A stretch of DNA of 64,000 nucleotides, taken from assembly GCF_900091585.1 (NCBI RefSeq), contig NZ_FMHT01000003.1, forward strand, positions 2,781,501 to 2,845,500, in the 5' to 3' direction. Origin of the DNA: Micromonospora nigra. Lineage in GTDB: Bacteria; Actinomycetota; Actinomycetes; Mycobacteriales; Micromonosporaceae. A program made the position numbers and the translations under genes. How positions within the stretch are numbered: the first letter of the stretch is position 1; each line of letters opens with the position of its first letter. The notes under the pieces are model-generated. The model had not been told where the DNA came from and ran no database searches. It worked only from the letters and a program-made list of their open reading frames with translations. Positions 3,077 through 19,416 of this stretch are shown here, piece after piece.

Positions 3077-3094
3077 CATAACCAACGTGGGTAG
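3077..3094 (-). promoter_or_regulatory. RifZ-type activator site A
   Basis: Read on the minus strand the site is CTACC-CACGTTGG-TTATG, a partial match to CTACC-N8-GGATG with exact spacing. It lies 90 bp upstream of the oxidoreductase start at 2987, with CTACC distal and the second half proximal, as in the other nine sites of this region. Confidence 0.6.
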
Positions 3095-3215
3095 TTCGGC
3101 GGGCCACTACTCACGGGGGCGGACTGCGATTTGAGTGCACGCACCCGGGAGGCCGACAGACGAAGGCATTGGGGAAACGTACGAGAACGCTGAAGTGACA
3201 TCGCCAGAAGAACGG

Positions 3216-3545
3216 TCAGCTTACCATTCTGTCGATGTCGACGAATACGTCGTCACCTTCGATACGCACCGGATAAACGTCCACGGGCTTGACGGCGGGC
3301 GCGGCGGCAGGTGCTCCGGTGCGCAGGTTGAAACATGCCCCGTGTGCCGCACATTCAATTTCGCCGTCGGCGACCTTGCCCTGCGACAGCGCCACCCTCG
3401 CGTGCGTGCACTCGTCTCGCAGAGCGTGCACCTTGTCAGCGTCGCGCACGAGCACGACGGGGACGCCACCAACCTCGACGGCAAGCGGAACCTCATCGTC
3501 GAGTTCGGACAGCGAACCAGCCTTGATCCAGTTCGTCGTGTGCAT
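3216..3545 (-). CDS. Rieske [2Fe-2S] ferredoxin
   Basis: A 109-residue single-domain Rieske protein. The cluster ligands are visible as C-T-H followed by C-A-A-H-G-A-C-F (CxH...CxxH), the pattern of Rieske ferredoxins feeding ring-hydroxylating or other oxygenases, not that of plant-type ferredoxins. No Rieske oxygenase large subunit is present in the window. It is downstream of the P450 at 3779-5047 on the same strand, separated by a perfect palindrome, so it may be made at a lower level from the same promoter. It could donate electrons to an oxygenase or to the iron-sulfur sugar dehydratase at 10780; both are inferences. Confidence 0.88.
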   Translation of the reverse strand: MHTTNWIKAGSLSELDDEVPLAVEVGGVPVVLVRDADKVHALRDECTHARVALSQGKVADGEIECAAHGACFNLRTGAPAAAPAVKPVDVYPVRIEGDDVFVDIDRMVS

Positions 3546-3633
3546 CCGGGTGGACCTCTTTCTCTCGATAACAACGGTGTGCTCCGGATCGTCGGTACGT
3601 CGGCCCTCGCACCGGACGGACGTCGGGTGGCGT

Positions 3634-3671
3634 AGGTCCTGGCGGCTCGGGTACCCGAGCCGCCAGGACCT
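3634..3671 (-). terminator. 38-bp perfect palindrome (terminator or attenuator)
   Basis: A perfect 38-bp inverted repeat, beginning AGGTCCTGGCGG and centred on GTAC, lies between the stop of the P450 (3779) and the Rieske start (3545). In RNA it would form a hairpin of up to 19 bp. There is no clear U-tract, so it may be an intrinsic terminator of the actinobacterial kind, an mRNA-stabilising hairpin that sets the P450:Rieske ratio, or a binding site for a dimeric protein. Confidence 0.65.
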
Positions 3672-3778
3672 GCACCGCGGGTGCTCGTCCCGCCGCGCTC
3701 TCTTCTCGACGTGATCGGCCGGCTGAGGCTCCCTTCAGAGGTTCACCCGTGGAGCGCAGCGTCAGGTGCCGGAGACGT

Positions 3779-5047
3779 TCAGACGAGTTTCAGGGGGAGG
3801 GTCCTGGTCCGGGTGAAGCCGGGGCGCAGGATCCATGGGATCTCCTCGCGTGGCACGGCGAGGGAAAGGTCCGGGAATCGAGTGAACAATCCCTGTAGCG
3901 CGACCTCTGCCTCCTGGTACGCGAGGTGCTGACCGAGGCAGCGGTGGATACCCTTGCCGAAGCCGAGGTGGCTCTCGCTGCCGACGGCGAGCCGGTCGAT
4001 GACCAGCTTGTTGGGGTCGGGGAACTTGCGTGGGTCGGTGTTCGCGGCCAGCAGCAGCGGTGCCACCGGTGCGCCTCTGGGGATCGTCACGCCGCCCAGT
4101 TCGATGTCCTCCGAGGGGAACCTCGGCTGCGCGAACTGGATCGGGCCCAGGCGCTGCAGTTCGCGCACCGCCTGCGGCCACATCGACGGGTTCTCCTTGA
4201 GCCGGGCGAGTTGGTCCGGGTTTTCGAGCAGGATGATGACCGAATTGCCGATCAGGTACGTCGTGGTCTGGTGGCCGGCGGTGACCAGACTGAACAGGAT
4301 GCCGATGATCTCGTCGTCGGAGACCCGGCTCGGATCCTCGGCCTGCGCCTGGACGAGCGCGGTGACGAGGTCGTCCTGGGGCTCGGCGCGCCTCTTCTCG
4401 ATCAGTTCCCGGGCGAGGTCGATGCACTTGAGGAGGGTGGTCGGAATCCGCTCGCCGTCCATCGTGGCCATCGAGTCGCCCCACGCACGCCAGTGCGGCC
4501 GGTCAGGCTCGTCGATGCCGACCAGGTCGCAGATCACGGCGACCGGCAGCGGGTAGCAGTACTCCTCGACGAGGTCGACCGGCGCGCCGTCTTTGCCGTC
4601 CTCGGCCAGCTTGTCGAGCAGATCCGCGGTGATCTTCTCGACCCGGGGGCGCAGCTTGTTGATGCGGTGCGCGGTCAGCGCGTACGAGACCAGCTTGCGC
4701 AGCCGGGTGTGGTCCTCGCCGTCGGAGACGTTGAGGAGGTTGGCCATCCACGGGATCAGGTCCGGCGGGAAGTCCAGTCGCTTGAACACACCGTCGCGGA
4801 TGTCGGCGATGGTCGAGTCGGCCGGCGGGTTGGTCAGGAACCGCGGGTCGGTGAGGACCTGGCGTACGTCCTCGTAACGGGTGACGAGCCACATCTCGGG
4901 CCCGCCCATCATGGTGCCGATGTTCAGGGTCCCGGTGTTCGGCCCAGTTTCCTCGCGCAACCGCGCGTACCAGCCGAACGGGTCGGCGACCACTTCTGGT
5001 GAGAACAGGTCGACCGTTTCGGCCGGTGTCTCGGCAGTGGTGGTCAT
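3779..5047 (-). CDS. Cytochrome P450
   Basis: A complete 422-residue soluble P450. Visible landmarks are DHTRLRKL in helix C, the I-helix motif AGHQTTT (oxygen-activating threonine; the acidic residue usual just before it is Gln here), and the heme loop FGKGIHRCLG with the cysteine ligand. The ATG at 5047 was chosen because GGGAGGGG lies just upstream; the open frame extends a further 99 codons without support. An activator-like site lies 103 bp upstream (5150-5167). The Gln for Asp/Glu change may reflect an atypical reaction. Several P450s (Rif5, Rif13, Rif16 and others) tailor rifamycin; which one this matches cannot be decided here. Confidence 0.95.
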   Translation of the reverse strand: MTTTAETPAETVDLFSPEVVADPFGWYARLREETGPNTGTLNIGTMMGGPEMWLVTRYEDVRQVLTDPRFLTNPPADSTIADIRDGVFKRLDFPPDLIPWMANLLNVSDGEDHTRLRKLVSYALTAHRINKLRPRVEKITADLLDKLAEDGKDGAPVDLVEEYCYPLPVAVICDLVGIDEPDRPHWRAWGDSMATMDGERIPTTLLKCIDLARELIEKRRAEPQDDLVTALVQAQAEDPSRVSDDEIIGILFSLVTAGHQTTTYLIGNSVIILLENPDQLARLKENPSMWPQAVRELQRLGPIQFAQPRFPSEDIELGGVTIPRGAPVAPLLLAANTDPRKFPDPNKLVIDRLAVGSESHLGFGKGIHRCLGQHLAYQEAEVALQGLFTRFPDLSLAVPREEIPWILRPGFTRTRTLPLKLV

Positions 5048-5149
5048 GAACCCCTCCCTTCGTGTCGAAAGAGCCTGTGATCGATTGACTGGGGACGGGC
5101 GCAATTCGGCACCGTTTCGGCAACGATAGGTAGGGGGCCGTGGATTGAG

Positions 5150-5167
5150 CATCCCCCAACCTGATAG
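5150..5167 (-). promoter_or_regulatory. RifZ-type activator site B
   Basis: Minus-strand reading CTATC-AGGTTGGG-GGATG, 103 bp upstream of the P450 start at 5047. A CTATCGT (TAnnnT-type -10) lies 20 bases beyond GGATG. It forms a divergent pair with site C. Confidence 0.7.
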
Positions 5168-5211
5168 GTGTGGGTAGCGCCCAGCGCCTGTCAGCGGCCA
5201 GCCGCATGCCA

Positions 5212-5229
5212 CTATCAGATCGAGGGATG
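5212..5229 (+). promoter_or_regulatory. RifZ-type activator site C
   Basis: Plus-strand CTATC-AGATCGAG-GGATG, followed after 20 bases by CTATTCT (possible -10). It faces the P450/ferredoxin unit beginning at 5524, which leaves a leader of about 270 bases. With site B it lies in a 476-bp gene-free divergent promoter region (5048-5523) in which I see no coding sequence. Confidence 0.7.
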
Positions 5230-5523
5230 CGTGGCCGGCGGTGCTTGTCCTATTCTCCCCGCGTGCAGGTTGCTGTTGATCGGCAAGGTCGTCCTGAACC
5301 GCGCTCGCCGGCACCGTCGCCGGTCGCGCGGTCCAGACCTCCACCAGGCGGCCGATTGATCATCAGAAATCGGCCGATCAGCCGGCCGGCGCGGCTGCGG
5401 CGATATGAGCCGTACCGAAGGCGTGCATGGGAACACGACCGGCGGCTGGCCGCCACAATCGATTCCTGGTGATCGGCGGAAATTGAGTCGTTGATCTGCC
5501 GAACAACAGAAGGAGGCTCTGCG

Positions 5524-6789
5524 GTGACGACTGAGACGACGAAAGTTCCGCCCGCTGACGAGTCGCTGAAGGCGCCAATTCCCCGAGAGCTCATGCAGCG
5601 TGACAACCCGTTCGTGCTGCCGCCCGCACTGGCCGAACTGGCCGAGCGGAGCCCTGTTGGTAGGTCGACACTGCCTGGAGGCGAACCGTTCTGGCTCGTG
5701 TGCGGGTATGACGAGGCCCGGGCGGTGCTCGCGGACCCCCGTTTCTCAGCCGACCGGTTTCGCTACCACCCCCGTTTCAAGAACCTGCCCGAGCAGCTCG
5801 GTGAGCAGCTACGGAACGACAAGGCGCGGGCCGGGTCGTTCATCAACATGGACCCGCCGGAGCACACTCGCTACCGCAAGTTGCTCACCGGTCAGTTCAC
5901 TGTGCGGAGGATGCGTGGTCTCACCACGCGAATCGAACAGATCGTCACCGAGCGGCTGGACGCGATGTTGGCGGCGGGAAACAGCGCCGACCTTGTTCCC
6001 GCATTCACGGTGGCGGTGCCCTCGCTGGTGATCTGCGAGTTGCTCGGGGTGCGCTACGAGGACCGGAAGGAGTTCCAGCAGCGTGCGTCGGACCTGCTGC
6101 GTACGGACCAGCCGGTCAAGCAGGCGGTGGAGAACTCCGAAGCCCAGCGCGAGTTCATGCAGCGGCTGGTGGCGGACAAGCGGAGGAATCCCACGGACGA
6201 CATGATCTCTGGCCTGGTCCACCACGCGGGCGCCGATCCCGCGTTGACCGACGACGAGCTGGTCGGTATCGCCAACCTGCTGCTCCTCGCTGGTCTCGAC
6301 ACCACCGCGAGCATGCTTGGGCTGGGCATGTTCGTGCTGCTACAGCGACCCGAGCAGCTTGCCGTGCTGCGTGACGAACCGGCTCGGACCGGTGCTGCCG
6401 TCGAGGAGTTGCTGCGCTACCTGACCGTGGTCAGCACCGGGCTCTTCCGTTTCGCCACACAGGACCTGGAACTTGGCGGAGAACACATCCCGGCCGGAGC
6501 GACCGTGGTGATCTCCCTGTTGGCCGCGAACCGGGACAGGCGGCACTGGACGGAGCCGGAGTCGCTGGACGTGACCCGCGAACGGAACTCGCACCTGGCG
6601 TTCGGCCACGGTGTGCACCAGTGCCTCGGCCAGCAGTTGGCGCGGATCGAGATGACCGTCGCCTACACCGAGCTGCTGCGCCGCCTTCCCAACGTCCGAC
6701 TCGCCGTACCACCCGACGACGTGCCGCTGCGCAACGACATGATCACCTATGGCGTGCACGCGTTGCCGATCGCCTGGGACGCGTCATGA
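5524..6789 (+). CDS. Cytochrome P450
   Basis: A 421-residue soluble P450. It shows DPPEHTRYRKLL in helix C, AGLDTTAS in the I helix with the normal Asp-Thr pair, and FGHGVHQCLG with the heme cysteine. The GTG at 5524 is chosen because AAGGAGG lies directly upstream at ideal spacing; an in-frame ATG 11 codons earlier has no ribosome site. The gene ends in an ATGA overlap with a [3Fe-4S] ferredoxin gene, its likely electron donor. Activator-like site C lies upstream. Inferred role: hydroxylation or other oxidative tailoring of the polyketide or sugar. Confidence 0.96.
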   Translation: MTTETTKVPPADESLKAPIPRELMQRDNPFVLPPALAELAERSPVGRSTLPGGEPFWLVCGYDEARAVLADPRFSADRFRYHPRFKNLPEQLGEQLRNDKARAGSFINMDPPEHTRYRKLLTGQFTVRRMRGLTTRIEQIVTERLDAMLAAGNSADLVPAFTVAVPSLVICELLGVRYEDRKEFQQRASDLLRTDQPVKQAVENSEAQREFMQRLVADKRRNPTDDMISGLVHHAGADPALTDDELVGIANLLLLAGLDTTASMLGLGMFVLLQRPEQLAVLRDEPARTGAAVEELLRYLTVVSTGLFRFATQDLELGGEHIPAGATVVISLLAANRDRRHWTEPESLDVTRERNSHLAFGHGVHQCLGQQLARIEMTVAYTELLRRLPNVRLAVPPDDVPLRNDMITYGVHALPIAWDAS

Positions 6790-6980
6790 GGGTGCGCGCC
6801 GACCGGAGTGTCTGCATCGGCTCGGGCCTGTGCGTGCTGCGCCTACCCGAGATGTTCGATCAGAGCGACGACGACGGCATCGTGCTGGTTCTGAGGTCAA
6901 ACCCCGACCCTGACCAGGAGGAAGCCGTACTCACGGCGATCGCCGCCTGCCCCTCCGGGGCGCTGCGGGTCGACCGCTGA
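6786..6980 (+). CDS. [3Fe-4S] ferredoxin
   Basis: A 64-residue ferredoxin of the kind paired with actinomycete P450s. It has the single-cluster pattern C-I-G-S-G-L-C near the N terminus and CPSGAL near the C terminus. Its ATG overlaps the P450 stop (ATGA at 6786-6789), which indicates translational coupling and a one-to-one electron-transfer partnership. The next gene to the right is convergent, so this ends the unit. Confidence 0.95.
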   Translation: MRVRADRSVCIGSGLCVLRLPEMFDQSDDDGIVLVLRSNPDPDQEEAVLTAIAACPSGALRVDR

Positions 6981-7058
6981 GGTCCGTGGTCTTCCTCGAC
7001 CGGCATGTCCGGACGTGCGTGGGGCAGGGGGCATCCGGTCCAGCGGGACCCACTCCGA

Positions 7059-7838: not shown

Positions 7839-9062
7839 CTACTGCAGCGTGAGGCGGCTCAACCTGTCCCGCAGGCTGTCGAGGCGTGCCGGCAGTTCCG
7901 GATCCCCCTCGGGCCACGTCAGGTCTATGCCGATCCGTCCGTCGAAGGTGTTCACCACGTAGCCGCCCATGGCCGTGGTTTCTCTGATGCTGGGCGCGGA
8001 GTGGAAGTTCGTCAGACGCAGATCGTGCGGCGTACGCATCGGCGGCACCGCGCCCCAGTTCATCATGCTCACCACGGCGGGAGCGGTGCTCGGATCCCAC
8101 GGTTTCGCGCCGGGCCGGGCCTGGCTGAGCAGGTCCAGAAGGCTACGCTGGATCGACCCGTCGGCCAGTCCCTCTCGCAGCCGTTCACCGATCGCTCGGC
8201 CGAGTGCGACCGCATCGGGTTTGAGGTCGCCGGCGGCCGTGAACCCGGCACCTCCCAGCACGTTCGTACCCTCGGTCGGACCGACCGGAGGAGTGAGGTG
8301 ACTGCGCAGGTTGACCGTGAATCGGTAGACGAGTTCGGTCAACGGCAGGTCGCGAATCTCGGCCTCGACGAGGAGCAGGACGCCCGCCAGCAGACCGTTG
8401 ATCGTCACGTTCTCGCGGTGACCGAGTTCCACGAGGGCACTCGTCTGTGCTGCCGTCAGGCGATGTTGGATGACGTGCTGGTCGGGGGTGTTCCGAGCGG
8501 TCACCACCGGCTGGTTTGGCTGCGCCAACGGCTGTGGGGCGGGTTCGGCGCCGGGCGCGGCACTGCGGATTCCACGCTCGGCGAGCAGGTCTTCCAGTGA
8601 CCTCGGGTACGGGTGGCGGGGCAGGTCGACGGGCGCGCCCTGGACGGCATCGGTGTAGCAGGACCACAACGCGACGAGCACCTCGATGGAATGGTGAGCG
8701 TCGGCGATGCTGTGATGGGTCAGCAGGCACACGGTGGCGTCGTCGCCATCGCGCACGACGTTGAGCGCGCTCAACGCGCGGTGCTGATCCAGCTCAACGC
8801 CGGTCAACGGACGGGCGAGGTCCCCGTCGCAGGTGTGGATCTTCGCGGGTGCGTCGGCCTCCGCGAAGACGGGCCCATGATCACTTGCGACCAACCGGGC
8901 CGCGAGCTGGGGATAGGCGCGCGACACGGCCGCGTAGGCAGTCGCCAGGGCGGCCAGGTCCAGTCGACCGGTGGTGTGGACCGTATAGCCGATGTAGGCC
9001 TCTTTGGCGGCATGGACCCTCTCGGAGGGTGCGAGCGCACGCCAAATCCCATCTCGTGTCAC
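7839..9062 (-). CDS. PapA5-type acyltransferase (Rif20-like)
   Basis: A 407-residue condensation-domain-like O-acyltransferase. The active-site motif HHSIADA (HHxxxDA) is present, and the N terminus has the APSERVHAAKEAYIGYT segment seen in PapA5 relatives. The GTG at 9062 is chosen because GGAGG precedes it by seven bases; the longer frame from 9146 starts only 20 bp from the activator site and would put 28 extra residues before the conserved start. With this choice the activator site is 104 bp upstream, matching its neighbours. Known relatives acylate polyketide hydroxyls; Rif20 acetylates C25 of rifamycin. It could instead acylate the sugar. Confidence 0.9.
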   Translation of the reverse strand: MTRDGIWRALAPSERVHAAKEAYIGYTVHTTGRLDLAALATAYAAVSRAYPQLAARLVASDHGPVFAEADAPAKIHTCDGDLARPLTGVELDQHRALSALNVVRDGDDATVCLLTHHSIADAHHSIEVLVALWSCYTDAVQGAPVDLPRHPYPRSLEDLLAERGIRSAAPGAEPAPQPLAQPNQPVVTARNTPDQHVIQHRLTAAQTSALVELGHRENVTINGLLAGVLLLVEAEIRDLPLTELVYRFTVNLRSHLTPPVGPTEGTNVLGGAGFTAAGDLKPDAVALGRAIGERLREGLADGSIQRSLLDLLSQARPGAKPWDPSTAPAVVSMMNWGAVPPMRTPHDLRLTNFHSAPSIRETTAMGGYVVNTFDGRIGIDLTWPEGDPELPARLDSLRDRLSRLTLQ

Positions 9063-9165
9063 GAACTGGCCTCCAGTCAGCGCATGGTGCCCGGCGATGC
9101 CGTGAAGCTGCCAGGTGAACTGCGATTCGAGCGTGATCAGGTTCACTCACGCCGCTCGCCGGGGC

Positions 9166-9183
9166 CATCATCAACGTGGGTAG
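9166..9183 (-). promoter_or_regulatory. RifZ-type activator site D
   Basis: Minus-strand CTACC-CACGTTGA-TGATG, 104 bp upstream of the acyltransferase GTG at 9062. Its flank ATGGCCCC is shared with sites A and E. Confidence 0.65.
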
Positions 9184-9303: not shown

Positions 9304-10464
9304 TCAGTCGTGTCGTCCGGCGTACTCGTGGACGACCCACTCGACGCGGCGGGCCACCTCACTCGGCAGTGGCAGGGTGGCGATCTCCTCCGCGAGAGCA
9401 CCCGCGGCCGCAGCGTACCTGGGATCAGAGATGATCTCCTGGCAGCTCTTCGCGATGGCTTCGCTCGTGGCTTGCTCCGGGGTGAGCGAGATTGCAGCGC
9501 CCGCCTCCACGAGGCGGCGGGCCATCGCGTTCGCGCGGTGCAGGCTGGGGTCGGGAATCAGCACCTGGGGCACCCCGTAACTGAGGGCCGTCATCATGGT
9601 GCTGCCGCCCGTCTGGTGGACGAGGACATCGCAGGTGGGCGCGAGGATGTCCAGGGGGACCCAGGCCGCCCGGACGTCCGTCAACCGATCCTTCAGGACG
9701 ACGAGCGCGTCGTCCGTGACCGGCACCACCACCTCCGCATCCACCGCCTTGACGTTCTCGACGATGGCCTGGAGGAAGTCGTACTGGTTGTAGCTCGCCA
9801 CGCCCGTCCCGATGGTCACGCCGATCCGGGCACCCGCGCCGCGCTTGTACATCCACGATTCCAGCCGGCACTGGGTGTTGCCCGGAATCCACCGCATCAT
9901 CTGCGCGGACGACGCCCCGGACGGACGCAGGCTCGGCGGCGTGATCTCGATCATCATGTCCGGCTCGGGGAGGCTGTCCAGGCCCAGCTCCGCCAGCTCC
10001 GCCTGGAGTTCCTCCGTCGCGCCGAGATCCAGCAGCTTCGGGTCGTGGATGTCCCACGCGTGGCGTACGTAGGGCACACCGAGGCGCTTCGCCAGCAGCG
10101 GGGCGGCGTAGGAGGACATGCCGCCGATGATGACGTCCGGGTGCCAGTCCTGGGTGAACGCCTGCAGAGCGTCGAGGGTCACCGCCTCCAGTCGCGCATA
10201 CCAACGGCCCGACTGCTGCTCGCGCGCGATGGGGTCCTCCGGGATCTGCATCAACCGGCTGTCACGCGCGATGATCTCCCGCGCGGAGACATTGGGGTCG
10301 GTGATCCGCACGACGGGAAGCCCGACCCCCGCGACGACGGGGATCAGCTCATCGAGCGAGACGGTCATCATGACCTGATGTCCCGCGTTGCGCAGAGCCG
10401 TTCCGAGCGGAACGTGACTGAACACCGTCGACGGGGCAATCCCGGCGAGAATAAGAACCCGCAA
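9304..10464 (-). CDS. Family-1 (GT-B) glycosyltransferase
   Basis: A 386-residue NDP-sugar glycosyltransferase of the macrolide/aromatic polyketide type. The N-terminal acceptor domain begins RVLILAGIAPSTVFSHVPLG; the C-terminal donor domain has the HQTGGSTMMTALSYGVPQVLIP segment, in which the His and Gly-rich loop bind the nucleotide-sugar diphosphate. The start is TTG at 10464, set by GGAGGA seven bases upstream and by where homology begins; the open frame runs 51 codons further without support. Activator-like site E is 105 bp upstream. It would attach the deoxysugar made by neighbouring genes. A glycosyltransferase-like gene also occurs in the rifamycin cluster, although rifamycin itself lacks sugar. 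Confidence 0.93.
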   Translation of the reverse strand: MRVLILAGIAPSTVFSHVPLGTALRNAGHQVMMTVSLDELIPVVAGVGLPVVRITDPNVSAREIIARDSRLMQIPEDPIAREQQSGRWYARLEAVTLDALQAFTQDWHPDVIIGGMSSYAAPLLAKRLGVPYVRHAWDIHDPKLLDLGATEELQAELAELGLDSLPEPDMMIEITPPSLRPSGASSAQMMRWIPGNTQCRLESWMYKRGAGARIGVTIGTGVASYNQYDFLQAIVENVKAVDAEVVVPVTDDALVVLKDRLTDVRAAWVPLDILAPTCDVLVHQTGGSTMMTALSYGVPQVLIPDPSLHRANAMARRLVEAGAAISLTPEQATSEAIAKSCQEIISDPRYAAAAGALAEEIATLPLPSEVARRVEWVVHEYAGRHD

Positions 10465-10568
10465 GTCGTCCTCCAGCGGTCGTGAAGTTCTCGGGCGGAG
10501 CCGAGCCCTGGAAAGGGCGCACCTCCAGGCGCGTACCGATTCAGCTTGCCGAAACCACCGGCCGGGGC

Positions 10569-10586
10569 CATCGCTCAGCTGGGTAG
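10569..10586 (-). promoter_or_regulatory. RifZ-type activator site E
   Basis: Minus-strand CTACC-CAGCTGAG-CGATG, 105 bp upstream of the glycosyltransferase TTG at 10464. Divergent partner of site F, 24 bp away. Confidence 0.65.
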
Positions 10587-10610
10587 TTCTGGTGGGCTGC
10601 CCGACGTCGC

Positions 10611-10628
10611 CTACCACGTTGGGGGATG
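10611..10628 (+). promoter_or_regulatory. RifZ-type activator site F (exact match)
   Basis: Plus-strand CTACC-ACGTTGGG-GGATG, an exact match to CTACC-N8-GGATG. CTAGTCT (possible -10) follows 19 bases after GGATG. It faces the sugar dehydratase at 10780. Confidence 0.75.
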
Positions 10629-10779
10629 CCCATTCGCCGTGGCACTTCTAGTCTCCTTTCCAGAGATCAGCCAGGTACGACGGTTATGCCGTGAAACGGG
10701 ATCAGGGCGACGACCGACGCCAATCCGAATCCAGGGCACGACACAGCGACAGCCCGCACTCGACCGTAGGGGATACGCA

Positions 10780-12087
10780 ATGGTCGATTCAGCCCGATCG
10801 CAGCTGCTGGAACTGGTCCGCGGCTACCACGCCGCCCAGGATCCGGAGCCGGCGCCGTTCGTCCCGGGCAAGACGCCGATCCTGTCGTCCGGGGCGGTAC
10901 TGGACGCTGACGACCGGGAGGCCCTGGTGGCCGCCGCGCTTGACCTGCGGATCGCCTCCGGCGGGATCACAGCGAAGTTCGAGTCGTCCCTCGCCAGGAC
11001 GCTCAAGCGGCGTAAGGCGGTGCTGACCAACTCCGGGTCTTCGGCGAACCTGCTGGCGCTCAGCACGCTGACCTCGACCGAACTGGGCGACGACCGGCTC
11101 AGGCCGGGCGACGAGATCATCACCGTCGCCGCCGGATTTCCGACCACGGTGAATCCGATCCTGCAGAACGGCCTCGTTCCCGTGTTCGTCGACATCGAAC
11201 TCGGCACGTACAACACGACGGCGGAGCGTGTCGAGGAGGCAATCTCCCCACGTACCCGCGGGATCATGATCGCCCACACGTTGGGCAACCCGTTCCCGGT
11301 CGCGGAGATCGCCGAGCTGGCCGCGCGGCATGGCTGCCACCTCATCGAGGACAACTGCGACGCCGTGGGCTCGACCTACAACGGCAGGCTCACCGGCACC
11401 TTCGGCCGGTTCTCCACGGTGTCGTTCTACCCGGCGCACCACCTGACCATGGGAGAGGGCGGCATGCTGCTGTCCTCGGACATCAAGCTGGCCAAGCTGG
11501 CCAAGTCGTTCCGTGACTGGGGCCGCGACTGCTGGTGCGAGCCCGGCGAGGACGACCGCTGCCTGAAGCGGTTCGAACTGCAACTCGGCACACTCCCGGA
11601 GACCTACGACCACAAGTACGTCTTCTCCGAGGTCGGGTACAACCTCAAGAGCACCGACATCCAGGCCGCACTCGGGCTCAGCCAGTTGGCCAAGCTGCCC
11701 GACTTCATCGAGGCACGCAAGCGCAACTGGCGTCAGCTGCGGGAGGGCCTGGACGGCCTGCCCGGCCTTCTGCTGCCCGAGCCGACCCCGGGCAGCGACC
11801 CGAGCTGGTTCGGCTTCATCATCACGGTGCTGCCGGACGCGGGCTTCGACGTCCCGGATGTCGTCGGCTATCTGGAGAGCCACAACATCCGCACCCGGCG
11901 GCTGTTCGCGGGCAACCTGACCCGTCACCCGGCCTACATCGGCCGGCCGCAACGCGTCGTCGGCTCGCTGGCCAACAGCGATGTGGTGACCGAGCGGACC
12001 TTCTGGATCGGCGTCTATCCGGGGATCACCCCGGAGATGATCGATTACGTCATCGGCACGCTCAAGGAGTTCGTCGCCTCGCACTGA
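10780..12087 (+). CDS. NDP-4-keto-6-deoxyhexose 3-dehydratase (E1/SpnQ type)
   Basis: A 435-residue member of the DegT/DnrJ/EryC1 fold in which the PLP-binding lysine is replaced. The motif FYPAHHLTMGEGG places His220-His221 where aminotransferases have Lys, the mark of PMP-dependent E1-type C3 deoxygenases (RfbH, SpnQ). Cys251, Cys253 and Cys261 in DCWCEPGEDDRC fit the [2Fe-2S]-binding region of that family. The reaction removes the C3 hydroxyl from a dTDP-4-keto-6-deoxy sugar with electrons from a reductase or ferredoxin. The ATG at 10780 follows AGGGG. Site F lies upstream and a convergent hairpin follows. Together with the 2,3-dehydratase it would give a 2,3,6-trideoxy sugar. Confidence 0.94.
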   Translation: MVDSARSQLLELVRGYHAAQDPEPAPFVPGKTPILSSGAVLDADDREALVAAALDLRIASGGITAKFESSLARTLKRRKAVLTNSGSSANLLALSTLTSTELGDDRLRPGDEIITVAAGFPTTVNPILQNGLVPVFVDIELGTYNTTAERVEEAISPRTRGIMIAHTLGNPFPVAEIAELAARHGCHLIEDNCDAVGSTYNGRLTGTFGRFSTVSFYPAHHLTMGEGGMLLSSDIKLAKLAKSFRDWGRDCWCEPGEDDRCLKRFELQLGTLPETYDHKYVFSEVGYNLKSTDIQAALGLSQLAKLPDFIEARKRNWRQLREGLDGLPGLLLPEPTPGSDPSWFGFIITVLPDAGFDVPDVVGYLESHNIRTRRLFAGNLTRHPAYIGRPQRVVGSLANSDVVTERTFWIGVYPGITPEMIDYVIGTLKEFVASH

Positions 12088-12294: not shown

Positions 12295-12295
12295 G

Positions 12296-13624
12296 TCATC
12301 CGACCGGTGAACTCACGCGCTCGCGGAGCTGAACAAGCGACGTGCTCAGCGCTTGACCGAGAAAGTCGAGGTCGGCATCGGTGGCATTCAGCGGCGGGGC
12401 CACCAGCAGGCCCTCTCCACTGCCGTCTCTGCCGTACCCGACGAACGGGTACAGCAACAGGCCGTTGCTCCTGGTGATCTTCAGAGCGTCGCCGACGGTG
12501 CCCGGGGCCAGTTCGATGCCGTAGAAGTAGCCGAGGCCACGCACATCCGTCACCACCGGAACGTCCCGCGTCGCCTCGGCCAGGATCTGACCCACCACCG
12601 CGCCGCGTACCTGGTCACGGTCAAGAGCACCGATCTCGTCCAGGACCGACAGCACCGCGAGCCCCACCCGTGCCTGCAACGGAGTCGCCGACATCGTGCC
12701 CATCAGCGGCAGCCACCTGCCACTCGACAGGATCGCGTCGGCCAGGTCCGGCGAGATCATCGTCGCAGCCAGGGGAATGAACCCCGCTCCGAGCCCCTTC
12801 GACAGCGTCACGATGTGCGCTTCCGCATCCGGCGTGTGGTGCGACCCCAGCGGAAGGCCGGTGCGGCCCAGACCGGTGAGGACCTCGTCGTGAATGACCA
12901 GGACGCCGTACTCGTCGCAGATCTCGCGGACCGCCCGCAGATATCCGGCCGGCGGAACGTACCCGCCTCCGGTGGTGCCGTTGACCGGTTCCATCAGTAC
13001 CGCCGCGACGCTCTGAGGACCAGCCGCGACGATGGCCTCGCGCACGGCCTGCGCGCATTCGACCCGGCAGGCGGGGAACGGGCATCCGACATGCTGGCCG
13101 GGGTACGGCGGATCGAAGGCGGGACTGATGCCGAAGCTGTCGTCCTCGTGCGGCCGTCGTGAGCGGTGACCGGACAGGGCGAGCACGAACGCGCTGTTGC
13201 CGTGGTAGCCCAGCGACGCCGTCAGCACCTTGTGGCGGCTCGTCTCACCCCGTGAGCGCTGCGCCAGTCGGGCCAGCGCGATGGCGGCCTCGTTGGCGTG
13301 CGTGCCGGTGGGGGTGAACATCACGCGGTCGTGCGGCCTGTGCACGGCCCTCGCCGTAGCGGCGGCCAACTGCTCCATGTGGCTGGCCACCAGCGATCCC
13401 GCACTGGCGTACGTGCAGATGCCCGCCTGGTCCCTCAGTGCCTCGACCACCTGGGGATGGGCGTGGCCGATGTTCACGTTGATGATCCCACTGGACCCGT
13501 CGAGATAGCGCTGCCCGTCCGAGGAGAAGATCCACGATCCGTAGGCGTGGGTGTAGGCGATCGGCGGGATCTGCAGCCGCGCGGCCAGGAGCTGCGACGC
13601 CCCCGCAGCGTTCTTCGTACTCAT
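12296..13624 (-). CDS. Class III PLP-dependent aminotransferase
   Basis: A 442-residue fold-type I aminotransferase of class III. It shows the substrate/PLP segments GIINVNIGHAHP, TPTGTHANEAAI and VLVIHDEVLTGLGRTG, and the PLP lysine in TLSKGLGAGF. Its ATG overlaps the stop of the 3-ketoreductase gene (ATGA at 13621-13624) and has AAGGAG upstream. Nucleotide-sugar aminotransferases are normally of the DegT fold, so a class III enzyme beside deoxysugar genes is unusual. It may aminate the sugar, as class III enzymes do in aminoglycoside pathways, or make an amino acid precursor. The substrate is undetermined. Confidence 0.9.
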   Translation of the reverse strand: MSTKNAAGASQLLAARLQIPPIAYTHAYGSWIFSSDGQRYLDGSSGIINVNIGHAHPQVVEALRDQAGICTYASAGSLVASHMEQLAAATARAVHRPHDRVMFTPTGTHANEAAIALARLAQRSRGETSRHKVLTASLGYHGNSAFVLALSGHRSRRPHEDDSFGISPAFDPPYPGQHVGCPFPACRVECAQAVREAIVAAGPQSVAAVLMEPVNGTTGGGYVPPAGYLRAVREICDEYGVLVIHDEVLTGLGRTGLPLGSHHTPDAEAHIVTLSKGLGAGFIPLAATMISPDLADAILSSGRWLPLMGTMSATPLQARVGLAVLSVLDEIGALDRDQVRGAVVGQILAEATRDVPVVTDVRGLGYFYGIELAPGTVGDALKITRSNGLLLYPFVGYGRDGSGEGLLVAPPLNATDADLDFLGQALSTSLVQLRERVSSPVG

Positions 13625-14637
13625 GACAACTCCTTCGTCTGGATGGTGTCCGCCAGCCCGGGGGTGTGATCGACACAGCGCCTCGCTCTGGCGCCGATGT
13701 CCTCGATGAGGGCCGCCTGCTGCAGCGTCCCGCCACTGTCGGGGAACCGCCCCGAGCGAACCGCCGTCGCGAAGGCGCTGACCGAGTTCGCCACCTGGTC
13801 GTCGGGGGTCAGCCGGATCTCCTGAACGCCCGAGCTCCGCTCCAGCCGTATCACCGGTACGTGGTCGGCGGGTGGGGTGAAAGCATGCTCGACGACGATT
13901 CGTCCCGCGCTGCCCCACAGCTCGTAACTGGACCGGTAGGAATGGTCGAGGCCGAAGGTCAGCTGCGCTCCCACACCACCGGAGCTGTGCAGCAGAGCAT
14001 GCCCGGCGGAGTCGACGTGCTGGCCGTGGCGGTGGGTCAGCACCGCCGAAAGCACCGTCAGGTCGCTGCCCAGGAAGGACATCGCTGCGCGTACCGGATA
14101 GACCCCGGCGTCCATGAGTGCGCCGCCGCCGAGTTCGGCGCTGTAGCGGACATCATCGGCCGGGCGCCTCGGCACGCCGAATGAGGCGTGGAAGGCGCGC
14201 AGGTCACCGATCGCGCCGTCCTCCAGTTGGCCCCTGACCACAGCGTGCTGGCGGTGGTGCGGGAACATGACGTTCTCCATGAGCACCAGACGGCGGGCCC
14301 GTGCCTTGGCGATCAGTCCACCCGTCCGGGACGCGCTGGTCGTCATGGGCTTCTCGGCGAGCACATGCTTGCCGGCGCTCAGGGCGTGGTCGATCCAGGC
14401 GGCGTGCAGTGCGTTCGGTAGCGGAACGTAGACGGCTTCGACCTCGTCAAGATCCAGGAGCGCCTCGTAACCCTTGACCGCGCGACAGCCGTGAGCTCGG
14501 GCAGCCTCCGCGGCCTTGTCGGGATCCCGGCTGGCTATCGCGGCGATCTCGATTCCCGGAAGGGCCGCCATGGCGGGGAGGACCTTCCGCCGGGCGACGC
14601 TCGCGCAGCCCATGATCCCGATGTGCACGGGCGTCAC
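13621..14637 (-). CDS. NDP-hexose 3-ketoreductase (Gfo/Idh/MocA, KijD10-like)
   Basis: A 338-residue dehydrogenase with GIMGCASVARRKVLPAM as the nucleotide loop, VLAEKPMT with the catalytic lysine region, and VLMENVMFPHHRQH, which resembles sugar 3-ketoreductases such as KijD10. These act after the 2,3-dehydratase: the 3,4-diketo-2,6-dideoxy product is reduced at C3. The GTG at 14637 is chosen because GGAAGGAG is five bases upstream; the frame extends 42 codons further without support. Site G lies 164 bp upstream, and the aminotransferase is translationally coupled downstream. If the 3-dehydratase acts next, the C3 hydroxyl is then lost, as in forosamine and rhodinose pathways. Confidence 0.9.
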   Translation of the reverse strand: MTPVHIGIMGCASVARRKVLPAMAALPGIEIAAIASRDPDKAAEAARAHGCRAVKGYEALLDLDEVEAVYVPLPNALHAAWIDHALSAGKHVLAEKPMTTSASRTGGLIAKARARRLVLMENVMFPHHRQHAVVRGQLEDGAIGDLRAFHASFGVPRRPADDVRYSAELGGGALMDAGVYPVRAAMSFLGSDLTVLSAVLTHRHGQHVDSAGHALLHSSGGVGAQLTFGLDHSYRSSYELWGSAGRIVVEHAFTPPADHVPVIRLERSSGVQEIRLTPDDQVANSVSAFATAVRSGRFPDSGGTLQQAALIEDIGARARRCVDHTPGLADTIQTKELS

Positions 14638-14800
14638 CAGGTCTCCTTCCCTGACACAGAGGCAGGCCAGCAGCCGTCCACGCCGGAACGTGAACCTGGC
14701 GACCGGAGCCGGCCGGTAACAGGTCCGCAGCTGGTGAGCTCGTGCCGAGCCCGCCACCGGCACGGCCTCCTGGACAGTAGGACAGGCGTGGAGCGATCGG

Positions 14801-14818
14801 CATCCCCTGGTCTGATAT
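14801..14818 (-). promoter_or_regulatory. RifZ-type activator site G
   Basis: Minus-strand ATATC-AGACCAGG-GGATG, followed after 20 bases by CTACTGT (possible -10). It faces the 3-ketoreductase start at 14637. The divergent partner is site H, 20 bp away. Confidence 0.62.
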
Positions 14819-14838
14819 GGCGCCGGACGTCGGCGATG

Positions 14839-14856
14839 CCATCAACACGAGGGATG
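14839..14856 (+). promoter_or_regulatory. RifZ-type activator site H
   Basis: Plus-strand CCATC-AACACGAG-GGATG with CTAACGT 20 bases downstream as a possible -10. It faces the 2,3-dehydratase start at 15078. The surrounding gene-free 440 bp (14638-15077) shows only this promoter pair. Confidence 0.65.
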
Positions 14857-15077
14857 CCTCGGCGCACTGCCCCGCCCTAACGTACGGACCAGACCATCAG
14901 CCCAACGAGCCAGCCGTGTCCAGTCGGCCGACCAGTCGGGAAGGTTGACTCGCTCGCCTCGTACCTCAGGAGAAGCCGCAGCACCCGGGACCTGACCGGA
15001 CGGGTGACAGCTCACCGTCAGCTACCGGTCGCGGGTCGGCGCACCCCGGCGAGTAGGCACGACATCAGGGGGTTCAC

Positions 15078-16523
15078 GTGATCGAAAGCTCGACCGCCCA
15101 GGCTGCGGCCATCGACACGACGTGGTACGAGCCCCTCACCGCCTCGGCCGAGAACGGTGCGATGTCCATGTCGGACTTCCACTCCTGGTTCAACGCGCGA
15201 ACCCGTGCGAACAGTTTCCAGGTCGAACAGATTCCGTTCGCGGAACTGCGCGGGTGGGACTTCGACCCGGAGACGGGCAACCTCGTCCACGAGACCGGGC
15301 GATTCTTCTCCATCGAGGGCCTGCGGGTCCGGACCAACCGGCCATGGATGAGCGAGTGGGGCCAGCCGATCATCGTGCAGCCGGAGATCGGGGTGCTCGG
15401 AATCCTCGTCAAGCGGTTCGACGGCGTGCCCCACTGCCTGATGCAGGCCAAGATGGAGCCGGGCAACATCAACGGTCTCCAGATCTCTCCAACCGTGCAG
15501 GCCACCCGCAGCAACTACATGAGGGTGCACGGTGGCGCGGACACCAAGTACCTGGACTACTTCCGGCCGGGCTCCCGCGGCCGGGTGCTGTTCGACGGTC
15601 TGCAGTCCGAGCAGGGGTCGTGGTTCCTGCACAAACGCAACCGCAACCTCGTCGTCGAGACCGACGACGACGTACCACTCGACGAGGACTTCTGCTGGCT
15701 CACGCTCGACCAGATCCGCCGCCTGCTGTTGCTGGACCACATGATGAACATGGATTCGAGGACGGTGCTGTCCTGCATCCCGCCGTCGCTGTCAGAGCCG
15801 AGCAAGCAGGACGCCGGCGACGATTCGTTCACCCACGCGGTCCTGCGTTCGTCGGCCGGTCGAAGCAGGGCCGTGCACGACACCGGGGAGATCCTCAGCT
15901 GGCTCACCGAGGTGCGCGCCCAGCAGGAACTGGTGCAGCGCCGGGTGTCGCTCAAGCACCTCACCGAGGACGGCTGGCGGGTCGGCCCCGACTCCATCAA
16001 CCACCGGGACGGAAAGTACTTCGACATCATCGCGGTGGCCGTACAGGCGAGCAACCGTGAGGTCACCGCGTGGACGCAGCCACTGTTGGCCCCCAGGCAA
16101 CCCGGTCTGCTCGCCCTGCTGGTCAAGCGGATCGGCGGCACGTTGCACGCCCTTGTCCAGGCTCGTAGCGACGCGGGCATGCTCAACATCGCCGAGTTGA
16201 CCGCCACCGTGCACTGCCAGCCGGGCAACTACGCCGACGTGCCGATGGAGCACCGCCCCACCTACCTCGACCATGCGTTGGCTGCACCCGCGCACCGCGT
16301 ACGCCTGGACGTCCTGCACTCCGAGGAGGGCGGCCGGTTCCACCACGCGCAGAACCGATACCTGGTGATCGAGGTCGAGGACGACTTCACCGAGTCCGAC
16401 GACGACCGGTACCGGTGGGCCACACTGCACCAACTCACGTCGCTGCTGCCACACAGCAACTACCTGACGGTGGAGCTGCGCAGTCTCATGGCCAGCATGC
16501 GAAGCCTGACCCAACGTCTGTGA
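15078..16523 (+). CDS. NDP-4-keto-6-deoxyglucose 2,3-dehydratase
   Basis: A 481-residue protein of the EvaA/SpnO/TylX3 family, which removes the C2 hydroxyl of dTDP-4-keto-6-deoxyglucose to start 2-deoxysugar synthesis. The family's two homologous halves are visible: GILVKRFDGVPHCLMQAK in the first aligns with ALLVKRIGGTLHALVQAR in the second, and LQSEQGSWFLHKRNR with LHSEEGGRFHHAQNR. The GTG at 15078 follows AGGGGG. Site H lies upstream. It works with the 3-ketoreductase at 13621 and the 3-dehydratase at 10780. Length and architecture are normal for the family. Confidence 0.95.
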   Translation: MIESSTAQAAAIDTTWYEPLTASAENGAMSMSDFHSWFNARTRANSFQVEQIPFAELRGWDFDPETGNLVHETGRFFSIEGLRVRTNRPWMSEWGQPIIVQPEIGVLGILVKRFDGVPHCLMQAKMEPGNINGLQISPTVQATRSNYMRVHGGADTKYLDYFRPGSRGRVLFDGLQSEQGSWFLHKRNRNLVVETDDDVPLDEDFCWLTLDQIRRLLLLDHMMNMDSRTVLSCIPPSLSEPSKQDAGDDSFTHAVLRSSAGRSRAVHDTGEILSWLTEVRAQQELVQRRVSLKHLTEDGWRVGPDSINHRDGKYFDIIAVAVQASNREVTAWTQPLLAPRQPGLLALLVKRIGGTLHALVQARSDAGMLNIAELTATVHCQPGNYADVPMEHRPTYLDHALAAPAHRVRLDVLHSEEGGRFHHAQNRYLVIEVEDDFTESDDDRYRWATLHQLTSLLPHSNYLTVELRSLMASMRSLTQRL

Positions 16524-16530
16524 CGGAGAA

Positions 16531-16564
16531 GCGGGAGGCCGGGCCGCGCGGCTCCACCTCCCGC
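16531..16564. terminator. Terminator-like hairpin between convergent genes
   Basis: GCGGGAGG at 16531-16538 pairs with CCTCCCGC at 16557-16564 around a GC-rich 18-base middle that can fold further. It lies between the stops at 16523 and 16604. Confidence 0.55.
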
Positions 16565-16603
16565 ATCCACCAGGCGAGTAGCGGCCCCGATCCCTGTTCC
16601 GGG

Positions 16604-18196
16604 TCAGCGGCCGCGCGGCAGCGCGCCGGCTGACGCGGGCGCGCCCAGCTGGCACCGCAGGTCGTCGACCAGGTCCCTGGCCTCGTCCGGGCTGCTCGCC
16701 GCGCCGAAGACATGGTAGTCGGGACGGATGAGCAGGCAGGTCACCCCGAACTGCGCCAGGTATGGACGGTAGACGTCATCCACGTCGACCACACCGTGCT
16801 TCGACGCGTCTCCGGGCGGCAGCAGCCGCACGACGTGCGCGTCGATCTCGGCGAGGATGGACAACCGGTCCTCGTCGAGGATGCGGTGCGGATCCTCGGT
16901 GGTCAGCAGGACGAAGCCCCGGCCGACGACGTCGTCGAACAGCCCGGTGTCGGAACCCCGCATCACGCGTCCCTGCGGTACGACCGCACCCGCCGGTGGC
17001 CTGGCCGGGTCCGTCGCGGTCCGCCGGTGCAGCAGCCCACCCGAGAGCGGCTTCGCCGGATCCGGCTGAGCCGGTGGCCTTCCGCGGCGGTTGGCCAGCA
17101 CGGTCACGTCCCGTTCGGCGGCCGCCGCTGGGTCCGTCACACAGATCACCCGACCCAACTGGACCGACGCCAGGATCGCCTCCTTGGCCTGCGCGCGGCG
17201 TTCCTCGACGTAGGAGTCAAGGAGGGAGTCCGTCGCCAGTCCGCGCAGGGTGAGGTCGAGCTTCCACGCCAGGTTGACGACGTCCCGAATGCCGGAGCAC
17301 ATGCCCTGACCGGCGAAGGGCGGCATGAGATGGGCGGCGTCACCGGCCAGCAGCACGTGACCGATCCGCCACTGGTCGGCCCACCTGGCCTGAAAGATGT
17401 ACGTGGTGCTGCGCAGCAGGGTGGCGTCGTCCGGGGTGACGCCGAAGGGCGCCAGCAGACGCCACGCCGTCTCGTCCCTGTTCAGTGCGGCAGTGCTCTC
17501 GCCGGGCAGTCGCATGAACTCCCAGCGTCGCCGCCCGGGCCCGCTGCCCACCTGGGTGGTGGGCCTCGCCGGGTCGCAGATCTGCACGTTGGTGGGAACG
17601 AACTCACGCGGCTCGTGAAGCTCGACGTCGCAGAGCAGCCACTCGTAGGAGAATCCGAGATCGGTGACGGGGACTTCGAGGTGGTTCCGGACGAAGCTGT
17701 TGGCGCCGTCGCATCCCACGACCCACCGGGCAGAGAGGGTCCGCGTCGCGCCGTCCTCGTCGGTGGCGAGCACGTCCACCAGCTCATCGCTGTCGTTGAT
17801 GCCCGTCACCTCGTGTCCCCGTAGCACCCGCAGACTGGGAAGCGTGGCCGCCCGGGCCGCGAGGAGTTCCTCAAGGGCCGGCTGGTGCATGGTGTTCGCG
17901 TCCGGCCAGCCGTACGGGCCGGTGGTTCTGAACTCGATGTCAAGCAGCGTCTCGCCGGCTGCGGTGCGCCACTGGTAGCCGCTGGCCGGATCCGTGATCC
18001 GGCCGAGTTCCGGGCCTATCCCGGTGGTGGCCAGCAGGCGCGCGGTTTCGCCGTCGAAACTGGTGGCCCGGGGGAGCCGATACGGCCGGGGACGGCGTTC
18101 GAGCACGGTGACCCGCCAGCCCTGTTGGGCGAGCAGCACCGACAGGGTGGCACCGATCGGCCCGTTACCCACGATGACGATGTCCGCGTCCGTCAA
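16604..18196 (-). CDS. Class A FAD-dependent aromatic-type monooxygenase (Rif19-like)
   Basis: A 530-residue flavoprotein hydroxylase. The FAD motifs are in order: VIVGNGPIGATLS (GxGxxG), VVGCDGANSFVR (DG motif) and HVLLAGDAAHLMPPFAGQG (GD motif), followed by the thioredoxin-like C-terminal domain of the phenol hydroxylase/MhpA group. The start is TTG at 18196, with GAGG just upstream, seven bases after the thioesterase stop. A 3-(3-hydroxyphenyl)propionate hydroxylase-like protein (Rif-Orf19) is part of the rifamycin cluster, and ring hydroxylation is the expected type of chemistry. The substrate is not shown by the sequence. Confidence 0.92.
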   Translation of the reverse strand: MTDADIVIVGNGPIGATLSVLLAQQGWRVTVLERRPRPYRLPRATSFDGETARLLATTGIGPELGRITDPASGYQWRTAAGETLLDIEFRTTGPYGWPDANTMHQPALEELLAARAATLPSLRVLRGHEVTGINDSDELVDVLATDEDGATRTLSARWVVGCDGANSFVRNHLEVPVTDLGFSYEWLLCDVELHEPREFVPTNVQICDPARPTTQVGSGPGRRRWEFMRLPGESTAALNRDETAWRLLAPFGVTPDDATLLRSTTYIFQARWADQWRIGHVLLAGDAAHLMPPFAGQGMCSGIRDVVNLAWKLDLTLRGLATDSLLDSYVEERRAQAKEAILASVQLGRVICVTDPAAAAERDVTVLANRRGRPPAQPDPAKPLSGGLLHRRTATDPARPPAGAVVPQGRVMRGSDTGLFDDVVGRGFVLLTTEDPHRILDEDRLSILAEIDAHVVRLLPPGDASKHGVVDVDDVYRPYLAQFGVTCLLIRPDYHVFGAASSPDEARDLVDDLRCQLGAPASAGALPRGR

Positions 18197-18203
18197 GGAA
18201 ACC

Positions 18204-18992
18204 TCACAGGTTCGCGCTGCTTGGAGGACTGGGATAGGGACTGTCCAGCAGTTCGCGTGCCACGATCGCGATCACGGCCTCGCTCTGGTCGACGAGGAAG
18301 AAGTGCCCCCCTGGGAGCACCTTGAGCGTCATCGGCCCGGTGGTGTGCTCGGCCCACGCGCGGGCTTCGTCCAGGGACACGCGGGGGTCGCTGTCGCCGG
18401 TGAGGACCGTGACCGGGCAGTCCAGTGCGCGGTCGGGGTCGTGGCGGTACGTCTCGATGGCGTGGTAGTCGCTGCGGACGGCCGGCAGGATCATCTGCAG
18501 CAGCTCCGGGTCGGCCAGCATGGCCGGTTGGGTGCCGTTCAGGGTGCGGAGTTCGGCCACGATCCGCGCATCCGTGAGGTCGCGCACCCGTTCGTCGCGG
18601 TAACGGCAGGGGGCCCGTCGACCGGAGGCGAAGAGGTGCGCCGGCGCGGGCATGCCGGCGTCCCGCATCCGCAACGCCACCTCGTAGGCGAGGACCGCGC
18701 CCATGCTGTGTCCGAACAGTGCCAGGGGACGATCGTGCAGGTGACGCAGCGCGTCGAAGATCTGGTCCGCCAGGTCGGGGATGTTGTCGACGGGCGGCTC
18801 CTGACGCCGCTCCTGACGGCCCGGGTACTGGGTGGACAGGACCTCCACCGTGGGAGCGAGGGCCTTGGACACCGGGTGGAAGAAGCTCGCCGAGCCACCG
18901 GCATGGGGCAGGCACACCAGCCGGGCCACACAGTCTGGCGCCGGGTGGAACCGACGCAGCCACTTCTCGACGTGCTCCGCAGATTGCGGCAC
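18204..18992 (-). CDS. Type II thioesterase (RifR-like)
   Basis: A 262-residue alpha/beta hydrolase of the editing thioesterase family that frees stalled or mis-primed carrier proteins of PKS or NRPS lines. It shows LPHAGGSASFF near the N terminus, the nucleophile elbow GHSMGA (Ser96), a downstream Asp in GDSDPRVS and the catalytic His in PGGHFFL. The GTG at 18992 has AAAGGAA upstream. Its presence implies a modular synthase in the same cluster outside the window. It is followed seven bases later by the flavin monooxygenase. Activator-like site I is 322 bp upstream. Confidence 0.94.
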   Translation of the reverse strand: MPQSAEHVEKWLRRFHPAPDCVARLVCLPHAGGSASFFHPVSKALAPTVEVLSTQYPGRQERRQEPPVDNIPDLADQIFDALRHLHDRPLALFGHSMGAVLAYEVALRMRDAGMPAPAHLFASGRRAPCRYRDERVRDLTDARIVAELRTLNGTQPAMLADPELLQMILPAVRSDYHAIETYRHDPDRALDCPVTVLTGDSDPRVSLDEARAWAEHTTGPMTLKVLPGGHFFLVDQSEAVIAIVARELLDSPYPSPPSSANL

Positions 18993-19313
18993 AACCAGAT
19001 TCCTTTCACGGAACTGTCCGTGGCGGTGTGATTCTCACGACACGACGACGATGGTCCTCGATGAGCGGAAGTTTCTTCAGCCACCCGCTGGCCCGGCTTC
19101 CCGTCGAGGACCAGTGCGATTCCGCTCACTTGTCCTCGCGCAGCCCCGGACGGCAGGGGTCGGCCGAAGTCCCGGGCATCGGGTCCGTCGACCTGTTACC
19201 GAGGGTCACGGCATGTGCTTCTTTCCTCCATGTCAAGCAGCCGGCGAACTGCTGGCCAAGGCGGGCGTGCGGCGGCCCTCTTCGCCCACGATAGAGACGC
19301 AGTGACCTGCCAG

Positions 19314-19331
19314 CACCCCTCAACCTGGTAG
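19314..19331 (-). promoter_or_regulatory. RifZ-type activator site I
   Basis: Minus-strand CTACC-AGGTTGAG-GGGTG; CTATCGT follows 19 bases later as a possible -10. It is oriented toward the thioesterase/monooxygenase unit. Confidence 0.62.
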
Positions 19332-19398
19332 GGCCGTGACCCGCACGCCCCGGTCCGGGCTTTGGGGCCGGCAGCGGCGGTTGGCGACGCGGTCGGAA

Positions 19399-19416
19399 CA
19401 GTCAGAACGAGGGATA
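19399..19416 (+). promoter_or_regulatory. RifZ-type activator site J (weak)
   Basis: Plus-strand CAGTC-AGAACGAG-GGATA. It diverges at both ends but shares the CGAGGGAT core of sites C and H, and it is oriented toward the LuxR gene, suggesting autoregulation. Confidence 0.4.

Follow-up and report, generated by a model that had tools for sequence, protein, structure and literature searches.

Putative RifZ operators of two classes in the rifamycin-type gene cluster of Micromonospora nigra and before a distant satellite operon

How could the many transcription units of a rifamycin-type gene cluster in Micromonospora nigra be switched on together? The question is raised by a 64-kb stretch of the genome (contig C3 of genome G000, positions 2781501-2845500; genome size 6.36 Mb), referred to here as the window. 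In a preliminary description of the window, ten 18-bp sites of the pattern CTAYC-N8-GGATG had been reported, one for each inferred unit, and a LuxR gene at 19760 had been proposed to encode the regulator RifZ. The analysis of sequence, conservation, placement and co-occurrence suggests, with a probability of roughly 0.88, that these sites are operators of a RifZ-type activator encoded at 19760, and that the regulon includes rifK and a satellite operon.

For Amycolatopsis mediterranei, PMC7062684 describes 10 rif operons with six promoter regions and four divergent pairs, and a region before rifK which is protected by RifZ and does not overlap that of GlnR. Activation of all cluster genes by RifZ is stated in PMC8788734. 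The window shares with this RifZ (AMED_0655) regulon a LuxR-type activator encoded in the rif cluster. The layout predicted from gene positions would agree with 10 operons, six promoter regions and four divergent pairs, to which rifK adds a further box. That RifZ activates each unit is known in Amycolatopsis; the present analysis adds the predicted regulon in this genus, two site classes and a satellite member. No description of a RifZ regulon in Micromonospora was found in a literature search whose scope left the TP-A0468 cluster paper (Zhou et al. 2019) outside.

The regulator gene at 19760..21106 (plus strand) encodes a LuxR-type protein with a GerE domain, which is 70-77% identical to four relatives. 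Identity and domain together bear out its naming as the ortholog of RifZ/Rif-Orf36, so that a LuxR-type helix-turn-helix regulator of this kind is present inside the rif cluster. The M. okii ortholog carries the database name Rif-Orf36. Seven Amycolatopsis proteins that were aligned (AMED_0655 itself not among them) are 62-66% identical to the 19760 protein, and the stretch ISRHTVAFHLKKV is identical in all seven. A search across the class (394 genomes) gave three matches, two already known and the third a relative of 41% identity, and a contig scan for Amycolatopsis clusters gave three loci, none of them from Amycolatopsis. A further known regulator is CxmY from the chaxamycin cluster of Streptomyces leeuwenhoekii, likewise of the Rif-Orf36 type among ansamycin regulators, but much less alike (43% identity to Rif-Orf36); no binding sites are described for CxmY in the available part of PMC4551226.

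Two side observations concern the regulator. In G318, two RifZ paralogs (C21:181032, 74%; C21:192095, 69%) are present within one rif cluster. A 4.5-kb contig labelled Candidatus Melainabacteria carries a RifZ ortholog of 69% identity together with an exact match to the site core, and is possibly a mis-binned actinobacterial contig.

All ten 18-mers were located at their reported positions, each pointing its GATG half towards the gene it faces and its CTA half away from it. The common pattern held in part: CTAYC-N8-GGATG is exact at 5150 (minus), 5212 (plus) and 10611 (plus), but the other seven sites carry one mismatch (9166, 10569, 14801, 14839 and 19314), two (3077) or three (19399). When up to one mismatch is allowed, the window contains 12 matches, compared to a mean of 4.6 and a largest value of 11 in shuffled sequences (0 of 100 reached 12). 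Eight of these matches are sites from the preliminary description; among the other four, 16564 faces a gene end, and 48652, 48781 and 51862 are located outside the cluster. A CTAnnnT element 19-20 bases after GGATG, reported for six sites, can be read from the letters at 5150, 5212, 10611, 14801, 14839 and 19314.

The ten sites do not form a single motif. Most sites of the first class, designated class A, have the form CTAYCA-N7-GGATG, followed after 18-20 bases by CTANNNT. The sites at 3077, 9166 and 10569 make up a second class, class B, which is devoid of CTAnnnT at 19-20 bases. It has approximately the sequence CTACCCACGTTGGTRATGGCCCC, with CTGATC or CTGAAT 24-25 bases on in the three sites of the window. 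The spacing of the two classes differs by five bases, about half a helix turn. The class B promoters (window 3072-3094, 9161-9183 and 10564-10586) have GATGGCCCC in common, and (C/T)CTGATCAGG was counted by eye in 6 of 18 aligned class B sequences.

For both classes a weight matrix was built from other genomes only (matrix A, 42 sites; matrix B, 15 sites; some sequences identical to window sites), and 204 kb around the window were scanned, with 30 Markov simulations as the measure of chance. The eight best matches of matrix A are, in descending order, 5212, 5150, a site before rifK (C3:2724878), 10611, 19314, 14801, 14839 and 19399. The first seven score 19.5-32.4 and exceed the simulated maximum of 18.1, with 19399 (14.5) falling below it. 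The three best matches of matrix B are 3077 (37.9), 9166 (33.9) and 10569 (14.1); the simulated maximum is 17.9, so that 10569 is below it. Thus, in the weight-matrix scan that had been proposed as a check, eight of the ten window sites exceed all 30 simulations. All six promoter regions in the window have at least one box scoring above the simulations; in the last pair this is not true of the 19399 half.

According to the preliminary description, four pairs of sites stand back to back in divergent promoters. Among the class A sites, the one at 5150..5167 (minus; matrix A 29.5) faces the cytochrome P450 gene at 3779-5344 with a Rieske gene, has CTATCGT 20 bases on and is present in seven of seven genomes; its partner at 5212..5229 (plus; 32.4) faces the P450 gene at 5491-6789 and is found in six of seven, G318 being the exception. 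The site at 10611..10628 (plus; 24.4; 7/7 genomes) faces a DegT aminotransferase gene at 10546-12087. At 14801..14818 (minus; 20.6) a site faces the Gfo/Idh gene at 13621-14763 and a class III aminotransferase gene at 12296-13918, and at 14839..14856 (plus; 19.5) another faces the NDP-hexose 2,3-dehydratase gene at 15078-16523; each of the two is present in all six genomes whose fetched DNA has the gene. The site at 19314..19331 (minus; 24.3) faces genes for a type II thioesterase (18204-18992) and an FAD monooxygenase (16604-18196), and is again lacking in G318 among seven genomes.

The three class B sites are all on the minus strand. The one at 3077..3094, with the sequence CTACCCACGTTGGTTATG(GCCCC) and a matrix B score of 37.9, faces Gfo/Idh oxidoreductase genes heading the polyketide synthase (PKS) operon, and was identified before the orthologous gene in six of six genomes (that of the window included) whose fetched DNA has the gene. 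The site at 9166..9183 (33.9) faces a PapA-type acyltransferase gene at 7839-9146 and occurs with up to two mismatches in five of seven genomes, not in G003 and G347. The site at 10569..10586 faces the glycosyltransferase gene at 9304-10617; its score of 14.1 is in the chance range, but in 7/7 genomes this place is occupied by a class B site having no more than two mismatches.

That the ten units represent the full set did not hold, since both rifK and a satellite operon at C3:672552 carry sites outside the window. The rifK site (C3:2724878, window coordinate -56622) is located upstream of a rifK-type gene and is exact in seven of seven genomes. Here CTANNNT is replaced, 18 bases downstream of the box, by CATANNATG or a closely similar sequence in all seven. 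The remote site C3:672552 is the best match of matrix A in a separate 40-kb stretch (14.1, the next 9.5) and is not above chance by score.

As the sites used for training and for testing are for the most part orthologous, conservation was also compared, using eleven groups of orthologous promoters with 5-7 genomes each. Identity is 87-100% in the ten core bases, a range flattered by the choice of aligned sites by core likeness, compared to 34-51% for the 30 bases upstream and 41-75% for the 18 bases downstream. The orthology of the training sites would also fit a similarity due to common descent of the promoters alone, with no shared regulator. This explanation is considered highly improbable: the motif also stands before non-orthologous genes, the flanks have diverged to the 34-51% given above, and the box goes with whichever gene heads the unit, being placed before an NmrA-type gene in G286 and G003 and before the satellite P450 gene in G000, G144, G296, G318 and G347.

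In the whole genome, the bare core is not specific to the cluster, as the preliminary description would have required. Eleven exact matches were found, six of them elsewhere, and their number is not enriched; the remaining five are accounted for by the cluster, rifK and the satellite. The 83-kb cluster is nevertheless denser in matches, with four exact ones where the frequency outside it would predict 0.09. None of the six unrelated matches (C2:65532; C3:1405330, 2636137, 3738993 and 4271605; window 51862) is followed by CTANNNT at 18-20 bases, and they were treated as probable chance occurrences, the genes having been viewed for C2:65532, C3:1405330 and 2636137.

Specificity appears when the -10-like box at a fixed distance is added to the core. 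The composite pattern, core plus CTANNNT at 18-20 bases, gave 33 matches in 10 of 160 genomes of the genus (that of the window included), compared to two for a reversed control (G294 and G348). Thirty of the 33 are found in the seven genomes with a RifZ ortholog of at least 70% identity, where, by their coordinates, they are within rif clusters or precede the satellite P450 gene; G276, G316 and G334 account for the other three.

As a side observation, one stretch each of G276 (C17) and G334 (C20) contains one box with CTANNNT and a RifZ-like regulator of about 41% and 34% identity, respectively, with PKS genes in G276. A regulator family wider than RifZ may share the site in these cases.

Several points weigh against the assignment of the sites to RifZ. 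The bare core is at background in number genome-wide, and the composite pattern is insensitive: it matches three of the ten sites in the window and misses the rifK site. By matrix alone, 10569, 19399 and C3:672552 are in the chance range, and the matrices derive from orthologous promoters while the aligned sites were picked by core likeness, so that both tests are affected by descent or selection. The comparison to A. mediterranei was made by the formula of the RifZ box, reportedly given by Li et al. in 2017 as CTACC-N8-GGATG, and involves no DNA of that species. Many boxes of the window differ from that formula in reading CTATCA-N7-GGATG, and the second class is an addition to it.

A last point is that class B is without the class A spacing and could be read by another factor. 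In that case class A would be the RifZ operator, while the sites at 3077, 9166 and 10569 would answer to a different regulator or represent a different promoter type; the conserved extension GATGGCCCC of class B, its lack of CTAnnnT at 19-20 bases and a CTGATC-like element about five bases further on fit this proposal. It is rated as unlikely, for both classes have CTAYC...ATG at equal spacing and both head rif units. In addition, the PKS unit would have no RifZ box if class B were set aside, though in A. mediterranei activation of the entire rif cluster by RifZ has been reported (PMC8788734).

The favoured assignment of both classes to RifZ also draws on the inversion of blocks between genomes, in which the units retain their boxes. 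For this assignment, the following mechanism is proposed. RifZ would bind the quasi-palindromic 18-bp box, probably as a dimer, with the box centre expected about 40 bases upstream of each transcription start. By recruiting RNA polymerase, it would turn on precursor, PKS, tailoring and sugar genes together. At class A promoters, the box 18-20 bases before the CTANNNT -10-like element would stand in for a -35 element. At the class B units (3077, 9166 and 10569), the box of about CTACCCACGTTGGTRATGGCCCC would act with the CTGATC-like element 24-25 bases on.

The claim of one site per unit is good for nine of the ten units; it does not extend to 19399, a degenerate site to which nothing corresponds upstream of rifZ in the relatives that were inspected. 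This class A site (19399..19416, plus) probably survives from a former rifJ promoter. At the corresponding position of G286 and G003, an intact site serves the class II dehydroquinase gene rifJ, which is located between the site and rifZ, and rifJ is not at this place in the window genome, G144 and G296. The site is degenerate in the window genome, and no site with fewer than three mismatches precedes rifZ in G144 and G296. Since 19399 probably belonged to rifJ, rifZ itself is left without a good box, unlike the A. mediterranei arrangement, from which the unit here also differs in lacking rifJ.

A working, weaker rifZ operator, implying autoregulation, was considered for 19399, which is directed towards rifZ and still reads CAGTC-N8-GGATA at the expected place. 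This is rather doubtful in view of its chance-range score, its damaged -10 box and the service of the intact G286 and G003 copies to rifJ. The G144 and G296 promoters speak against it as well, and G347 offers just a two-mismatch candidate without the inner bases of the motif. The region 19640-19760, directly preceding rifZ, looks similar on visual comparison of five genomes and contains no good box; it may be rifZ's own promoter.

RifJ relatives were identified elsewhere, with 73% identity at C3:385684 in the window genome and 79% at G296:C1:5588650 and G347:C1:5768608, the latter two within a few kb of the end of the rif cluster. G286 has rifJ plus a relative of 77%. These may be paralogs or moved genes.

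The satellite operon lies on the same contig as the cluster, 2.05 Mb away, and its site faces a P450 gene followed by a multicopper oxidase gene; an operon of the likely pathway at this distance is a further difference from the A. mediterranei regulon. The satellite P450, the multicopper oxidase and a nearby NmrA-type gene product are 76-84% identical to products of genes inside the G286 and G003 rif clusters. The P450 (E at most 1e-140) is present in exactly seven of the 160 genomes, those with a RifZ ortholog, a count uncorrected for relatedness. A box with CTANNNT stands directly before it in five of the seven (G000, G144, G296, G318 and G347), while in G286 and G003 the operon starts with NmrA, which is preceded by the box (one mismatch), and the P450 gene has none before it.

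The distance of the P450 gene to the cluster on the same contig is 1.8 Mb in G296 and 2.3 Mb in G347, and in G318 it is located on another contig. The G144 gene was dropped as a remote case: its site adjoins the cluster, because the contig also carries rif oxidoreductase genes and the start of the PKS genes. The multicopper oxidase gene adjoins the P450 gene in G000, G144, G286 and G003 and is inside the main cluster in G296 and G318; it was not detected in 80 kb of G347 DNA. On balance, and with some reserve, the rif pathway is viewed as physically split yet under one regulon, with the P450 gene inside or beside the cluster in G286, G003 and G144 and 1.8-2.3 Mb away, under its own RifZ box and -10 element, in at least three others, G000 (with the multicopper oxidase), G296 and G347. 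In this proposal a scan for box plus -10 element would find genes missed by cluster mining, and the activator may use two geometries about half a helix turn apart.

The nearest solved relatives of the satellite P450 are pentalenic acid synthase and other hydroxylases. It is 55% identical to a 393-amino-acid P450 of S. leeuwenhoekii, and in PMC4551226 Cxm22 is listed as an Orf4 homologue of 393 amino acids; the satellite P450 may be the counterpart of Rif-Orf4. An FAD monooxygenase gene is found beside the P450 gene in G000, G144 and G318. It was rejected as the rifampin monooxygenase Rox, scoring 477.7 bits against the NCBIfam cut-off of 800 and being nearer to polyketide oxygenases; Rox belongs to the same flavin monooxygenase family and appears as the 7th and 9th of 100 structure matches. 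A different PKS-type gene is located near the satellite operon.

The assignment would extend a known Amycolatopsis antibiotic switch to a genome of the Micromonospora group, with a sharper and testable site definition. The resulting sequence rule picks rif genes genome-wide, including the conserved satellite P450 gene as a knock-out target.

As judged by gene content, the window and its left flank form a rifamycin-type cluster. On the minus strand left of the window are five very large PKS open reading frames, one of which was domain-checked as KS-AT-DH-KR-ACP, and genes of the dehydroquinate-synthase, class II DAHP-synthase, DegT (rifK by position), Gfo/Idh and HAD-phosphatase families. The genes for 3-amino-5-hydroxybenzoate and the five modular PKS genes expected with a RifZ regulon are thereby present, the domains having been checked in that one PKS. 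Orthologs of the left-flank genes and of most tailoring genes, with about 62-95% identity, are clustered in relatives of the same genus. Among Micromonospora strains, M. okii TP-A0468 is a reported producer of 16-demethylrifamycin (PMC7283461 and PMC8698034).

The families encoded at 1-24 kb comprise Gfo/Idh oxidoreductases, two P450s, a sugar epimerase, a PapA-type acyltransferase, a glycosyltransferase, aminotransferases, an NDP-hexose 2,3-dehydratase, an FAD monooxygenase, a type II thioesterase, the LuxR regulator, a methyltransferase and transketolase halves. The PKS unit is headed by a Gfo/Idh oxidoreductase gene at 1998..2987 (minus), of the rifS/rifT type by position, after which the large PKS genes follow on the same strand. 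In the neighbouring P450 unit, the Rieske protein is encoded at 3225..3545 (minus), and the P450 of 3779..5344 is 85-95% identical in five relatives and 73% in G318. The glycosyltransferase is EryCIII-like. By analogy with PMC4551226, the FAD monooxygenase and the type II thioesterase of 16604..18992 are Orf19-like and RifR-like, respectively. Behind rifZ, the methyltransferase gene and the transketolase halves occupy 21073..23705 (plus). Two blocks between window -53249 and 12087, that of the PKS genes and that of the DegT, glycosyltransferase, PapA and epimerase genes, are inverted relative to G286 and G003, and the boxes stay with their units.

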